Source of the DNA: Luteimonas fraxinea
Lineage (GTDB): Bacteria; Pseudomonadota; Gammaproteobacteria; Xanthomonadales; Xanthomonadaceae
Direction of reading: 5' to 3'
NCBI RefSeq assembly: GCF_021233355.1
Contig: NZ_CP089507.1
Coordinates: 1,922,001-1,986,000, forward strand
Length of the DNA: 64,000 nt
Shown one piece after another: positions 4,352 through 57,723 of this stretch. The stretch's first letter is position 1. Each line of letters begins with the position of its first letter. The translations under genes were made by a program, and so were the position numbers. The notes beneath the pieces are model-generated. The model was not told the origin of the DNA. It ran no database searches and saw only the letters and a program-made list of their open reading frames with translations.

Positions 4352-4420
4352 GCGCGGCGATTGACGGCGCCGCACGGTCGCGTGCGCTATGAAGGGTGTC
4401 CAATCGAACAGGCCGACCCG

Positions 4421-5443
4421 ATGAGCGACTCCACCGCCACCCGCATCGTCCTCGCCGCGCGCCCGACCGGCGCGCCGACACCCGATGACTTCCGCGTCGA
4501 AACATTCCAGGTGCCTGCGCCGCGCAACGGCCAGGTGCTGCTGCGCAACCGCTGGCTGTCGCTCGACCCCTACATGCGCGGCCGCATGAACGCCGGTCGC
4601 TCCTACGCCGCGCCGGTCGAGATCGGTGAGGTCATGGACGGCGGCACGATCTCGGAAGTGGTGCAGTCGCTGCATCCGGCCTGGTCGCCGGGCGATCTGG
4701 TGCTCGCGCATGCCGGCTGGCAGACACACGCCGTCGTCGATGGCGAAAGCCTGCGCCGCAAACTCGGCCCCGCCGGCCTGCCGGTGCAGACCGCACTCGG
4801 CGTCCACGGCATGCCCGGCTTCACCGCCTACGCCGGCCTGCACGAGATCGGCAAGCCGCAGCACGGCGAAACCGTCGTCGTCGCCGCGGCGAGCGGACCG
4901 GTGGGCGCGACTGTCGGCCAGATCGCGAAACTCCACGGCGCACGCGCCGTCGGCATCGCCGGAGGCCCGGACAAGGTCGCGCACGTCCGCGACGACCTCG
5001 GCTTCGATGTCGCCCTCGACCGCCGCGCCGACGACTTCGCCGAGCAGCTCGCGGCTGCGTGCCCGGACGGCATCGACGTCTACTTCGAGAACGTCGGTGG
5101 CAAGGTGTTCGACGCCGTGCTGCCCCTGCTCAACGACTTCGCCCGCATTCCGGTGTGCGGCCTCGTCGCCCACTACAACGACACCGCTCCGCCCGCCGGC
5201 CCCGACCGCGTGCCGCAACTGATGGGCGCGATCCTGAGCCGCCACCTGACCGTCCGCGGTTTCATCCAGCGCGACTTCATCGCGCTCTATCCCGAGTTCG
5301 TGCGCGAGATGGGGCAGTGGTTGCGCGATGGACGCGTGCGGTATCGGGAGGATGTCGTGGAGGGTCTGGAGAACGCGCCGGAGGCATTCATCGGGATGTT
5401 GGCAGGGCGGAATTTCGGGAAGTTGCTGGTCAAGCTGGACTGA
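4421..5443 (+). CDS. NADP-dependent medium-chain reductase, CurA/leukotriene B4 dehydrogenase-like
   Basis: A 340-residue zinc-free MDR-family reductase. The N-terminal GroES-like domain has the signature RNRWLSLDPYMRGRM. The nucleotide-binding motif AAASGPVGATVGQIAKLHGA lies mid-protein, followed by DVYFENVGGKVFDAVLPLL and VCGLVAHYN, all typical of CurA/PTGR-type enzymes that reduce activated C=C bonds. The C-terminus EAFIGMLAGRNFGKLLVKL is also diagnostic. The true substrate is unknown. It ends about 107 bp before the palindromic element. Confidence 0.9.
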   Translation: MSDSTATRIVLAARPTGAPTPDDFRVETFQVPAPRNGQVLLRNRWLSLDPYMRGRMNAGRSYAAPVEIGEVMDGGTISEVVQSLHPAWSPGDLVLAHAGWQTHAVVDGESLRRKLGPAGLPVQTALGVHGMPGFTAYAGLHEIGKPQHGETVVVAAASGPVGATVGQIAKLHGARAVGIAGGPDKVAHVRDDLGFDVALDRRADDFAEQLAAACPDGIDVYFENVGGKVFDAVLPLLNDFARIPVCGLVAHYNDTAPPAGPDRVPQLMGAILSRHLTVRGFIQRDFIALYPEFVREMGQWLRDGRVRYREDVVEGLENAPEAFIGMLAGRNFGKLLVKLD

Positions 5444-5549: not shown

Positions 5550-5965
5550 ACCCGGAGGGCGTCGGCCATGGATGGCCGGCGTTTTCCGACCGAGGCAGGA
5601 TGCCGAGTCGGAAAATCCAGATGCGCTAAGAGCCGCGGGCTTCGGACGTGTCGGGGAGACGTTTTTCTTTGGTTTCGTTTCTTTTGGCGTCAACCAAAAG
5701 AAATGAACTCGGCCGCGTCAGCGGACGAAAGCGTTTGATCTACGCCTGTGCGTTTGCCTGCGCCGGGAGACGCAACGTCAAACGCTTCCACTCGCCTTGC
5801 GGCGAGCGGGTTCATTTCTTTTGCTGGCCCTAAAGAAACGGAACCAAAGAAAAGGGCCAGCCCCGAGGGAGCAAATCCGGCCAGTCATTCGTTCCGGGAT
5901 TTTTCGACTCGCCATCCTGGCTCGGTCGAAAAACGCCGCACATCCATGTGCGACGCCCTACGGGT
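5550..5965. repeat. 416-bp palindromic dispersed element, copy 1
   Basis: A non-coding element nearly matched in length and sequence by 56173-56587. The outer 69 bp at each end (5550-5618 and 5896-5965) are inverted copies differing at about nine positions. Inside each arm are local hairpins: CGGCC-atggat-GGCCG on the left against CGCAC-atccat-GTGCG on the right, and TTTTCCGAC/GTCGGAAAA against TTTTTCGAC/GTCGAAAAA. The stems differ but still pair. A further hairpin TTTCTTTTGG/CCAAAAGAAA follows. It lies between the convergent genes ending at 5443 and 6046. No transposase is encoded. Confidence 0.85.
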
Positions 5966-6045: not shown

Positions 6046-7098
6046 TTACCTGCCGACCGGCACAACCTCCTCCTCGACATCCACCACCGGCACCACCACC
6101 CGCCGCGTCGCCTTCTCCAGCTGCGCAAGCGCCACCTTGCCCGCCGCCTTCGCTTCCAGTGCCTGCTGCTGCACCTGGCAGAGCGTCTGCATGTGGTCGG
6201 CGTCGAAGTTCAGGCGTTCGATCAGGAAATCGACGAACGCGCGCACCTTCGGTGACACCAGTCGGCCGCCGGGGAAGACGGCGTTGAAGTCGACTTCAGG
6301 GCCGGTCCAGCCGGCGAGCACGCGTTGCGCCATGCCGGCTTCGACGAAGGCCTTGGCCATCACATCGCCGGTGAGCATCAGGCCTTCGCCCTTGATCAGT
6401 GCCCAGTTCAGCGCGGCGGGATCGTTGGCAACGAGCTGCGGGTTCACCGGGAAATCGCGCAGCGCGCGGCCGTCGGTGAGCGACCAGATGAAGCGGTTGT
6501 TCGCGTTATGGCTCTTGCGCATCACCAGGGTGCGGTGGTGCTGCAGGTCGTCGGGATGCAGCGGTTCGCCGTGCTGTTCGATGTAGGACTGGCTGGCGAA
6601 GACCTGCGTGCGCAGGCTGCCGAGCTTGCGCGCGACGAGGTTGGAATCGGGCAGCGTGCCGATGCGCAGGGCGAGGTCGGCTTCGCCTGCGATCAGGTCG
6701 AGCTTCTCGTTGCCCATGTGCATGTCGAGCTGGATCTCGGGGTACTGCGCCTGGAAGTCGCCGAGCAGCGGCGCGATCCAGGTGATGCCGATCGAATACG
6801 GCACGGTGAAACGCAGCCAGCCGCGCGGGCCGGACTGCAACTGCGCGACGGCGCTTTCGGCGTCTTCGAGGCCGCGCGCGATGCGCTGGCAATGCTCGTG
6901 ATAGATGCTGCCGGCCTCGGTCAGGCCAAGCCGGCGCGTGGTGCGGTTGAGCAGGCGCGCGCCGAGTCGCTGTTCGAGTTCCTGCACTTTGCGGCTGACC
7001 GTGGTCTTGGGCAGGCCAAGCGCATTGGCGGCAGCGATGAAGCTGCCCTGCTCGACCACCTTGACGAAGATCAGGGTCTCGTTGAGATCGTGTGCCAT
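6046..7098 (-). CDS. LysR-family transcriptional regulator of the efflux operon
   Basis: A 350-residue LTTR. The N-terminal winged helix-turn-helix is clear (FVKVVEQGSFIAAANALGLPKTTVSRKVQELEQRLGARLLNRTTR). The effector-binding domain includes LRFTVPYSIG and ADLALRIGTLPDSNLVARKLG, the CrgA/DsdC-like subgroup. About 40 extra residues at the C-terminus, rich in Ala and Val, exceed the usual 300-310. It is divergent from the SDR-RND operon across 381 bp, like MexT and MexEF-OprN, so it probably controls that operon and itself. Efflux control is inference from position. Confidence 0.9.
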   Translation of the reverse strand: MAHDLNETLIFVKVVEQGSFIAAANALGLPKTTVSRKVQELEQRLGARLLNRTTRRLGLTEAGSIYHEHCQRIARGLEDAESAVAQLQSGPRGWLRFTVPYSIGITWIAPLLGDFQAQYPEIQLDMHMGNEKLDLIAGEADLALRIGTLPDSNLVARKLGSLRTQVFASQSYIEQHGEPLHPDDLQHHRTLVMRKSHNANNRFIWSLTDGRALRDFPVNPQLVANDPAALNWALIKGEGLMLTGDVMAKAFVEAGMAQRVLAGWTGPEVDFNAVFPGGRLVSPKVRAFVDFLIERLNFDADHMQTLCQVQQQALEAKAAGKVALAQLEKATRRVVVPVVDVEEEVVPVGR

Positions 7099-54874: not shown

Positions 54875-54878
<4 letters not shown>

Positions 54879-56056
54879 GCAACATGAAATGGATGTGGTG
54901 CGTGGTGCGCAAGGAGCTGCTCGACATCGCGCGCGACCGGCGCACGTTGTTCATGGCGCTGCTGCTCGGCCCGTTGATGTACCCGCTGCTGATGCTGGGC
55001 ATGAACTTCATGGCCGAGAAGCGCATGAAGACCGAACAGGACCGCGTGCTGGAAGTGCCGGTGATCGGCGCCGAACACGCGCCCAATCTCGTCGCGCATC
55101 TGGCGACGCTCGGCATCCAGGCCGTCGATGCACCGGCGGATCTCGACGCGGCGATCGCCGGCCAGGACATCGACGTGGCGATCGAGATTCCGGCGAGCTT
55201 CGCCGAGGACTGGCACGCCGGTCGTCCGGCGACGGTCGAGATCATCAGCGACAGCACGCGCCGCAACGCCGAGACGCCGACGCGTCGTGTGCGGAATGCG
55301 ATCACCGCCTACGGCCAGCAGGTCGGCGCCCTGCGCCTGCTCGCCCGCGGCATCGATCCGTCGGTGGTGCAGCCGGTTGCAGTCGGCACACGCGACACGG
55401 CGACCGAGGAAGCCAAGCGCGGCATCCTGCTGGCGATCCTTCTGCCGTATCTGCTGATCCTGTCGAGCTTCATCGGCGGCTCGTATCTGATCCTCGACGC
55501 CACCGCCGGCGAACGCGAACGCCAGTCGCTGGAACCGCTGCTGGCCACCCCCGCCTCGCGCGGCGCGATCGTCAGCGGCAAGATCGCCGCCGCCTGCATC
55601 ATCGGCATGGTCTCGCTGCTGCTCACCCTGCTCGCCTTCAAGATCAGCGCGCAGATGGGCACGAGCGCCTCGCGGATGCTCGACGTCAGCTTCGTCGCGA
55701 TCGGCAAGATGCTGCTGGTGCTGCTGCCGATGCTGTTCGTCGGCACGTCGCTGCTGACCTTCCTCGCCGCGACCGCCAAGAGCATGAAGGAAGCCCAGAG
55801 CCACATCGTCTGGCTGATGCTGCTGCCGATGGTTCCGAGCTTCGTGCTGATGATCAACCCGATCAAGACCGAGCTGTGGCAGTTCGCCGTGCCGTTCCTC
55901 GCACAGAACCAGCTGCTGCTGAAGATCATCCGCGCCGAACCGATCGCGCCGGAAGTGTGGGGTGTGTATCTGGGGGCGAGCCTGGCATTGGCTGCGGCGC
56001 TGTGGCTGCTGGCCGTGTGGCGCTATGGGCAGGAGAAGTTGGCAGTTGCCGGCTGA
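54875..56056 (+). CDS. natB: ABC transporter permease, NatB-like
   Basis: A 393-residue ABC-2 permease with one N-terminal TM (RTLFMALLLGPLMYPLLMLGM), a large extracytoplasmic domain (about 40-190) and five TM segments in the second half, including the conserved TAGERERQSLEPLLATPASRGAIVSGK segment. This is the NatB/CcmB-like layout. Co-translated with natA. A rho-independent terminator follows 25 bp later. Confidence 0.88.
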
Positions 56057-56080: not shown

Positions 56081-56106
56081 AGCCCGGCATCTGCCGGGCT
56101 TTTTCT
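56081..56106 (+). terminator. Intrinsic terminator of the natAB operon
   Basis: AGCCCGGCA-TC-TGCCGGGCT is followed by TTTTTC on the plus strand, 25 bp after the natB stop codon. Confidence 0.9.
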
Positions 56107-56172: not shown

Positions 56173-56587
56173 ACCCGGAGGGCGCCGCCCATGGATGGGC
56201 GGCGTTTTCCGACCGAGGCAGGATGCCGAGTCGGAAAATCCCGGTGCGCTAAGAGCCGCGGGCTGTGGACGTGTCGGGGAGACGTTTTTCTTTGGTTCCG
56301 TTTCTTTTGGCGTCCACCAAAAGAAATGAACTCGGCCGCGTCAGCGGACGAAAGCGTCTGACGTTGCTATTCCGCTTCGCTCTCACGGCGAGAAGCAAGA
56401 TCAAACGCTTCCACTCGCCTTGCGGCGAGCGGGTTCATTTCTTTTGCTGGCCCAAAAGAAACGGAACCAAAGAAAACGGCCAGCCCCGACGGAGCAAACC
56501 CGGCCAGTCATTCGTTCCGGGATTTTTCGACTCGCCATCCTGGCTCGGTCGAAAAACGCCGCACGTCCTGTGCGGCGCCCTACGGGT
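56173..56587. repeat. 416-bp palindromic dispersed element, copy 2
   Basis: It has the same orientation, length (415 bp) and order of blocks as 5550-5965. Its left tip hairpin is CCGCCC-atggat-GGGCGG and its right tip is CCGCAC-gtcct-GTGCGG: again different stems that still pair. The variable middle (about 56375-56400) is the main difference. It lies between natB and the TonB-like gene, which converge, leaving 117 bp and 86 bp on either side. Confidence 0.85.
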
Positions 56588-56673: not shown

Positions 56674-57723
56674 TCAATTCGCCGTCGGCGCAAACCCGAT
56701 CGTCCGCCGCGTCGTCACCGGCGCCGGTACCGGCTCGAACCGCCAACGCCGCACCGCCGCCAACGCCTCCCGATCGAACGTGCGCGGTGGATCGGCGCGG
56801 ACCACGCGGGCGTTGCTGACCGAGCCGTCGACGCCGACGGTGAATTCGACCATGACTTCGCCACTCGTGCCGGCGCGTAAGGCGTCGGCGGGATAGCGCG
56901 GGGCGGGCGTGCTCAGTGGACGCAGCTGTGCGGGCGCAGCAGCCGGCGCGGGTGCCGCAGGTGCGGGCGCAGGCGTTTCCTGCGGCGCGGGTTCGGGGCG
57001 GGCCGGCTGCGGGCGCGCGGCTTCTTCACGGGCGGCGGCCTGACGGGCCGCCTCTTCGCGGGCCGCCTGGTCGGTCGCGGTCTGCTGCTGCGCGAGCTGC
57101 TGCGCGGCGGCGGCCTGTTGCTGCTGTTGTTGCGCTGCGCGTTCGCGTTCGACGGTCTGCGCGCGCTGGGCTTCCTGTTCGGCGGTCAGCTTCTGCTGCT
57201 CGACGCGGGCCGCGGCCTGTTCCTCGGACGTGGCGATGCTCGCGCGCAGGCGCTCGAGCGCGGGATGCTTGCTGTCGGCGCGTTCGATCAGGCCGAGCAG
57301 ACGACGCGCTTCGGCGTAGTCGCCGCGGTCGCGGCTTTGCTCGGTGGCGATGACGCTCATCGGCAGCAGGTCGATCAGCGCGCTCGATGCGGCGGCGTCA
57401 CCGGCCTGCTTTTCGCGCAACGCGAGGTAGTACTCCATCGCGTTCTCGCCGGCCGGCGCATACAGCCGGCTTTCCTGGTACGCGGCCGCGCCTGCGCTGC
57501 GCAGCTCGTCGACCGAGAGCCCGGCGATCGCATCGTCGGCCGCCTGCTGACGCGCGGCGGCCTGCTGGCTGGCCTGCGCGGTGACCGCGCCCGGCGCGGC
57601 GGCGACAGGCGCTTCGGCCTCGTCACTACGCCCGCAGGCGGCAAGTACACAGGCGAGACCCACGGCGGCGGCCAGCCGCGCGCTGGACGCGCGACGGGTC
57701 GTCGGAATCTTCGAGACCATCAT
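56674..57723 (-). CDS. TonB-like lipoprotein with long Ala/Gln-rich coiled region
   Basis: A 349-residue protein. Signal peptide with lipobox ACVLAACGRSD. Residues 60-150 are helical (TPR-like: AAAYQESRLYAPAGENAMEYYLAL), 150-230 are Ala/Gln/Glu coiled-coil, then a Pro/Ala linker and a TonB_C domain (PRYPADALRAGTSGEVMVEFTVGVDGSVSNARVV, EALAAVRRWRFEPVPA). The N-terminal membrane segment of real TonB is replaced by a lipid anchor. Start MM at 57723 with GGGGAA upstream. Confidence 0.85.
   Translation of the reverse strand: MMVSKIPTTRRASSARLAAAVGLACVLAACGRSDEAEAPVAAAPGAVTAQASQQAAARQQAADDAIAGLSVDELRSAGAAAYQESRLYAPAGENAMEYYLALREKQAGDAAASSALIDLLPMSVIATEQSRDRGDYAEARRLLGLIERADSKHPALERLRASIATSEEQAAARVEQQKLTAEQEAQRAQTVERERAAQQQQQQAAAAQQLAQQQTATDQAAREEAARQAAAREEAARPQPARPEPAPQETPAPAPAAPAPAAAPAQLRPLSTPAPRYPADALRAGTSGEVMVEFTVGVDGSVSNARVVRADPPRTFDREALAAVRRWRFEPVPAPVTTRRTIGFAPTAN

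Follow-up and report, generated by a model that had tools for sequence, protein, structure and literature searches.

A 64,000-nt stretch of the Luteimonas fraxinea genome (contig NZ_CP089507.1; hereafter the window) carries two copies of a palindromic repeat, each arm of which folds into two adjacent hairpins, H1 and H2. CsrA/RsmA is a global regulator, and the sequence CANGGAYG in a hairpin loop is a CsrA/RsmA site; loops of this kind are kept in both hairpins while the stems drift, which is the new point about this repeat and takes it beyond an ordinary REP family. The repeat is dispersed, its arm fold is upheld by covariation, and relatives differ in its presence. The reading to which about even credence is given here is that of a dispersed REP-like RNA repeat, whose paired RsmA-binding hairpins near gene ends would titrate RsmA or tether the transcript.

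From the tip inward, each half of the element (Table 1) consists of ACCC-GNA-GGG, H1 with the loop CA(N)GGA(Y)G, TTTT, H2, a linker, an A/T-rich hairpin (H3), a short GC hairpin and the centre. H2 has the same type of loop as H1 and a GA/GA mismatch within its stem. The halves are inverted copies of each other, and the centre varies in sequence and length. The two copies, their lengths and their outer 69-nt inverted repeats, as described in the initial annotation, were confirmed; these repeats are 87% complementary in copy 1 and were detected as two pieces in copy 2, of 52 nt (88%) and 19 nt (89%). All four window arms fold better than 200 of 200 dinucleotide shuffles (z −3.73 to −4.18). In the best RNA fold of the left arms of both copies H1 is longer and H2 shorter, the GGA loops being kept either way. 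Left and right arms represent two sequence types, and elements with two like arms also occur. The loop length differs by one letter among arms (5 of 60 have no N in H1), which would shift the frame in any protein-coding reading. Gene context was obtained throughout with a codon-based gene caller made for this analysis.

Table 1. Features of the two repeat copies and their neighbourhood (window positions)
Feature	Position	Strand	Remarks
Element copy 1	5550..5965 (416 nt)		head-to-head palindrome, two halves round a variable centre
Left arm tip, copy 1	5550..5618	+	H1 5560-5581 (GGA 5570-5572), H2 5582-5615 (GGA 5598-5600)
Right arm tip, copy 1	5897..5965	-	inward from 5965: H1 5955-5934, H2 5933-5900
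H3, A/T-rich hairpin, left half of copy 1	5674..5707	+	
Element copy 2	56173..56587 (415 nt)		orthologous gene pair without element in seven relatives
Left arm tip, copy 2	56173..56241	+	H1 56183-56204, H2 56205-56238
Right arm tip, copy 2	56520..56587	-	inward from 56587: H1 56577-56557 (5-nt loop AGGAC), H2 56556-56523
Terminator-like hairpin AGCCCGGCATCTGCCGGGCTTTTT	56081..56104		between left gene and copy 2; similar one in empty sites of relatives; by eye
Left flanking gene, copy 1	4382..5443	+	stop 107 nt from tip; open frame begins at 4361
Right flanking gene, copy 1	6046..7098	-	tip-to-stop distance 81 nt
Left flanking gene, copy 2	54875..56056	+	tip 117 nt past stop
Right flanking gene, copy 2	56674..57723	-	tip-to-stop distance 87 nt; open frame runs to 57741

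Some further features were observed around the arms (G, C and L numbers denote genomes, contigs and loci). In three copies of the L. fraxinea genome (G000 C1 335869-336344, 1026777-1027324 and 328215-328751) one or both halves have an additional hairpin-rich block (about 62 bp) at the position of H3, and an extra block lies in the same place at loci L327, L332 and L334 of G145, which belongs to another genus. Tandem hexamer-like runs (GTTGCC, GTTGCT, GCTTTT) are found just beyond the tips of many copies, for example at G000 C1 2036524 and 3049435 and at G090 loci; a loose RACGY motif about 22 nt before most tips and pyrimidine-rich repeats were also seen in L. fraxinea. A promoter was sought by eye upstream of the tips in this genome and in G145; no clear −35/−10 was seen, and G145 has a conserved leader. 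Elsewhere in the window, Rfam matches were obtained for sRNA-Xcc1 (RF02221; 30463-30545, minus strand; 74.1 bits, over gathering) and whalefall-1 (RF01762; 23605-23654, minus strand; 37.3 bits, barely over the gathering score of 37).

On searching the complete L. fraxinea genome (4,008,183 bp) by blastn with copy 1, this copy and 12 further sites were found, two facing half copies being counted as one site. A covariance model of the 69-nt arm tip, built with the GGA loops (R1), gave 25 arms at 13 sites, all with E < 1e-19, the next match having an E of 0.014. Eleven elements have two arms and one has a single recognised tip; the remaining site carries two single arms with their tips facing. 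Blastn gave matches in 21 of 61 genomes (L. fraxinea counted), of which 19 belong to the genus. With R1 the architecture was found in at least 169 of 297 family genomes and at least 44 of 54 genera, as scored on 17-18 candidates per genome, so that genomes may be missed and arms undercounted. In a sample of 274 genomes from the class, R1 matched at least 35, at least two of which belong to the family; matches at this level have lower scores and are partly loop-dependent.

An exact sequence pattern was found, among the matches listed, in Xanthomonas, Stenotrophomonas, Lysobacter, Pseudoxanthomonas, Dyella, Methylomonas and others; judged by eye, many of the matches outside the family have just an H1-type hairpin in common. 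A related form, CCCGNAGGGCGAG-NNN-CATGGATG-NNN-CGAGT, often preceded by mini-hairpins, occurs in many Gammaproteobacteria outside the family (L191, L209, L210, L241 and others), and locus L047 (G026 C24 9019-12201) has three tandem half elements spaced by about 220 nt. Copy 1 had no match in plasmid and phage records. Two IMG/VR contigs fit the sequence pattern with an H1-type hairpin alone, and were not matched by the loop-masked model R2 (see below) at E 0.1. No account of this repeat was found in the openly accessible literature searched, and no Xanthomonas terms were found in passages of PMC2267715.

Selection on the fold through compensatory changes had been proposed from the four window arms, which made a thin case. 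The four different tip stems listed for it are in fact three cores, both right arms carrying CGCAC/GTGCG, and the second-stem change from TTTTCCGAC to TTTTTCGAC is one change common to both right arms. The proposal became firm with 60 arms (53 distinct), for which covariation was tested by pair counts with shuffle and slide controls. It was found that 96.8% of the cells are paired, compared with 86.5% on shuffling, that both sides change in 9 of 21 pairs (5.4 shuffled), and that the covariation score is 0.265 against 0.087 for shuffled and at most 0.075 for slid structures; none of 500 shuffles reached any of the five measures, in a control that ignores relatedness, a point that counts against the RNA reading. 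In other genera the stems are strongly altered and both hairpins are still there. Among 151 distinct arms, 26 different H1 5' stems were counted, two of them with gaps.

The loops behave differently from the stems. Of the 151 distinct arms in the R1-based set, 150 have GGA in the loop of H1 and 145 in that of H2; among the 25 arms of L. fraxinea the numbers are 24 and 23. Since R1 itself contained the loops, a second model (R2) was made with the loop letters masked; it gave 217 matches from 160 sources, 159 of them distinct. Of these 159 arms, 153 have GGA in H1, 145 in H2 and 143 in both hairpins, where chance would give 10% for H1 and 8% for H2, nearly all input loci having been obtained by copy 1, R1 or the CATGGATG pattern. 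Some of the R2 arms without GGA are truncated or are antisense overlaps. The arms thus present several GGA motifs in hairpin loops, as CsrA/RsmA-sequestering RNAs do. According to passages of PMC4333381, CsrA sites are hairpins with GGA in the loop and are generally paired. The L. fraxinea genome encodes one CsrA, with L4 and R44, residues that are named as important for RsmE-RNA binding in the part of PMC4950607 consulted; this agrees with the RNA reading.

If the selected molecule were DNA, the GGA strand would be expected to show as many G.T as A.C cells. In 120 well-aligned rows, 28 G.U and 5 A.C cells were counted (p 7e-5), and in the strictest 87 rows 24 and 4 (p 2e-4); all 151 rows contain 35 G.U and 13 A.C cells, together with 91 other and 50 gap cells. 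When counted by distinct pair and type, the numbers are 14 versus 5 (p 0.06), which weakens the case for RNA. The G.U excess favours RNA over DNA in a suggestive but not final way.

Both window copies lie between convergent genes, as had been noted, but this does not hold as a rule, since 5 of the 13 L. fraxinea sites are convergent, 8 tandem and none divergent (control gaps 11, 72 and 19). For this genome alone, convergent enrichment has a p of 0.018 and divergent depletion a p of 0.12. When G090, G145, G081, G205 and G087 were added, 30 of 75 sites were convergent, 42 tandem and 3 divergent, the corresponding numbers for 281 control gaps (minimum length 50 nt in L. fraxinea, 80 nt elsewhere) being 32, 180 and 69; the suggested preference for convergent gaps was therefore borne out as a bias (p 8e-8), accompanied by divergent depletion (p 2e-5). 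This set covered 21 of 32 arms of G090 and 26 of 63 of G145, and 13 regions of G081 (29 arms in the genome), 4 of G205 (21 arms) and 3 of G087 (37 arms); L328, with two arms at a contig end, was left out. A tip lies 58-198 nt past a stop codon at 12 of the 13 L. fraxinea sites, the exception being the site with facing single arms.

The location near gene 3' ends is firm. The reading of arms as sense 3'UTRs is not, because in the other genomes 13 of the 20 single arms lying in tandem gaps point towards the 5' end of a gene, which often makes their GGA strand antisense to the genes beside it; the sense-3'UTR rule fails for these arms, and they argue against a pure 3'UTR model and to that extent against the RNA reading. 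The listed arms of G090 are strand-biased, with 12 of 12 on the plus strand of C2 and 4 of 4 on the minus strand of C4, as if tied to the direction of replication.

Comparison of orthologous sites indicated that the element is mobile or labile. At the locus of copy 2, for which ten relatives were compared, G020 has the element, and in G062, G009, G068, G032, G022, G024 and G063 the same two neighbours are separated by a gap of 79-428 nt with no arm; in G036 and G074 the right gene is missing there. A GCCCGG...CCGGGC hairpin was seen by eye in each of the seven empty gaps, so the element probably arrived beside an existing terminator. Seven loci were compared for copy 1. The orientation is kept in G074, and in G020 (L357) the same two genes, both members of the genus's pair, flank an element that is inverted in place. 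In G062 the gene pair is present, and its gap contains only a low-scoring match (18.2 bits, E 0.017) that may be left over from the element. In G022, G032 and G063 the right gene occurs with an element and the left gene lies elsewhere, adjoining another copy; G036 has none. The inversion and the rearrangements at copies fit recombination between copies, and lend some support to the earlier suggestion of a recombination hotspot. Of the suggestion that the element is non-autonomous and mobile, mobility or lability was upheld by the presence or absence and the in-place inversion between relatives. No partner transposase was found in a search for Y1_Tnp, the only type sought, and no target duplication was read at the locus of copy 2, where the empty sites are too divergent to fix the ends.

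A number of known RNA families have features in common with the arms. TwoAYGGAY (RF01731) is a predicted CsrA-binding RNA, and a tandem GA in a stem is noted for it in passages of PMC4333381. The arms likewise have two hairpins with AYGGAY-type loops and a tandem GA in one stem; 107 of 151 distinct arms have a strict AYGGAY loop in H1, and the H2 loop is often one letter shorter. Unlike TwoAYGGAY, the element occurs in many dispersed copies as head-to-head palindromes, and the L. fraxinea arms have no visible outer stem. RsmW (RF02809) and RsmU are RsmA-binding sRNAs derived from 3'UTRs, according to parts of PMC4950607 and PMC7694677. As in these, the GGA hairpins lie close to gene 3' ends; RsmW and RsmU are, however, single genes for which RsmA binding has been shown, whereas the element has many repeat copies, for which binding is predicted from sequence.

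The L. fraxinea copies gave no CsrA-clan Rfam match on their arms, even at E 10, which speaks against the RNA reading. Relatives were scanned at 34 loci with E up to 1, at which chance-level matches to other families also turned up. TwoAYGGAY matched below its gathering score of 43 at the arms of L145 and L161 (36 and 35.1 bits) and, at a distance from the arm match, in L436 (40.2 bits); RsmW matched below its gathering score of 52 at related double hairpins detected with R1 outside the family (L430, L431, L432, L433 and L441; best 33.4 bits). Both belong to clan CL00106, and the matches other than that in L436 are in favour of the RNA reading. Membership of either family was rejected, as the gathering scores were reached neither by the L. 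fraxinea copies nor by the relatives. An rsmX match near the window copies (21.5 bits, gathering 56) was also rejected: it lies on a gene end and terminator, off the arms, and the other matches are weak.

RsmU comes from the comEA 3'UTR in Xanthomonas (passages of PMC7694677). A comEA-family gene, presumably the counterpart of the RsmU locus, was found in L. fraxinea and in six probable Xanthomonas genomes. The L. fraxinea comEA 3'UTR contains GGAGCAGGACGCTCC as well as the hairpin GGCAGGATGCC, which many arms have in identical form at the apex of H2; the presence of this hairpin in the 3'UTR supports the RNA reading. The comEA 3'UTRs (L421, L415) were not matched by the arm model R2 at E 0.1, which tells against that reading and led to the rejection of RsmU as a family member. 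It is further stated in parts of PMC7694677 that RsmU with all four GGA changed to AAU was still bound by RsmA, in a smaller complex and with the phenotype kept, which also weighs against the RNA reading. By the tests made, the element is not TwoAYGGAY, RsmW or REP; it most probably works like a CsrA-binding RNA.

In the preferred RNA reading, each arm transcribed inward from its tip would yield H1 and H2 side by side, with CANGGAYG loops about 28 nt apart, and this loop pair would form a double site of the kind that a CsrA/RsmA dimer can clamp. The head-to-head palindrome would offer the pair to transcripts from either side; transcription entering the element would expose a pair of RsmA hairpins, in the manner of RsmW and RsmU, and the many copies would serve as sites or decoys for RsmA. 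Since the stems change and the loops keep the CsrA/RsmA motif, the repeat may be a dispersed decoy or docking site. Covariation on 60 arms, the loop-blind GGA counts, the G.U excess and the avoidance of divergent gaps (3/75 versus 69/281) all point in this direction. Of the roles first suggested for the repeat, that of an RNA sponge gains most, as both loops bear the CsrA/RsmA motif, which the initial annotation did not mention. Transcription of the arms, binding of RsmA, the sponge role and a benefit to the host beyond the element's own are what we infer from these features. At the locus of copy 2 a terminator-like hairpin separates the left gene from the element, which is a point against the RNA reading.

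The main rival is a role in DNA: the repeat would be a REP/BIME-like element whose hairpins, in single-stranded DNA, are recognised by a transposase of the RAYT or some other HUH type, with the loops kept for that enzyme and any RNA incidental. This is possible, though doubtful. Like REP, BIME and REPIN elements and the SMAGs of S. maltophilia, the repeat consists of dispersed intergenic palindromes and inverted pairs with a bias against divergent gaps (passages of PMC3733652); it has GNAG ahead of a hairpin, shows insertion polymorphism between relatives and is strand-biased along the contigs of G090, and REPs are reported in the same passages to sit mainly between convergent and unidirectional genes. 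It differs from them in being much longer, in its fixed loops and in having no link to a RAYT, and any of three letters can stand at the N of GNAG (G in 30, T in 18 and A in 12 of 60 arms), so that there is no fixed GTAG-type tag. Y1_Tnp is absent from the complete L. fraxinea genome, and is present in 33 of 52 genus genomes with none in the element-rich G022 and G026. No copy lies at any of the genus's 30 RAYT loci, where the longest match was 25 nt with an E of 4.9, and a RAYT origin was rejected on these grounds. The preponderance of G.U over A.C also runs counter to a role in DNA.

An improbable alternative is a MITE-like non-autonomous transposon, whose RNA fold would have no role for the host and whose covariation would arise by template switching or conversion between hairpin arms. 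MITEs are short, with inverted-repeat ends and insertion polymorphism, and the element has these features, including terminal inverted repeats; its in-place inversion, the rearrangements at copies and the elements with two like arms would also agree with such an origin. Template switching, however, predicts free stems, not CANGGAYG-fixed loops in two hairpins across genera, and neither a target duplication nor a partner enzyme was found in the comparison of divergent empty sites and the search for Y1_Tnp alone. It is very unlikely that the repeat is a bidirectional terminator or 3'-end stabiliser for the neighbouring genes: in the genus all 60 arms have a GC-rich H1 with TTTT after it (TTTC in a single arm), convergent gaps are enriched and the tips lie shortly past stop codons, but several other genera have TTCGCGG, GTGAGCG or TGCGGG after H1 and no T run, relatives without the element possess their own terminator-like hairpin at the locus of copy 2, and 8 of the 13 L. 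fraxinea sites are tandem. A terminator role, among those first proposed, is thus unlikely as the conserved function, and the first interpretation stands in part, as regards a structured family, mobility or lability and a convergent bias.

To our knowledge, the known antagonists of CsrA/RsmA are a few dedicated sRNAs. Tentatively, a CsrA/RsmA-binding double hairpin may have become the conserved body of a family of mobile repeats in the Lysobacteraceae that has relatives in other Gammaproteobacteria; this family may act as a distributed RsmA sponge or be a selfish element that uses RsmA as a host factor. If this is true, its spread would seed dozens of RsmA sites at gene ends, and copy number together with read-through of many genes would set the level of free RsmA, as a distributed sponge beside or replacing dedicated RsmX/Y/Z-type genes. 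A repeat with paired RsmA-type sites across much of the family would be an unrecognised sink for CsrA/RsmA, and its spread would thereby be tied to global regulation. A class of intergenic palindromes that are usually called REP-like would also be given a concrete and testable function.
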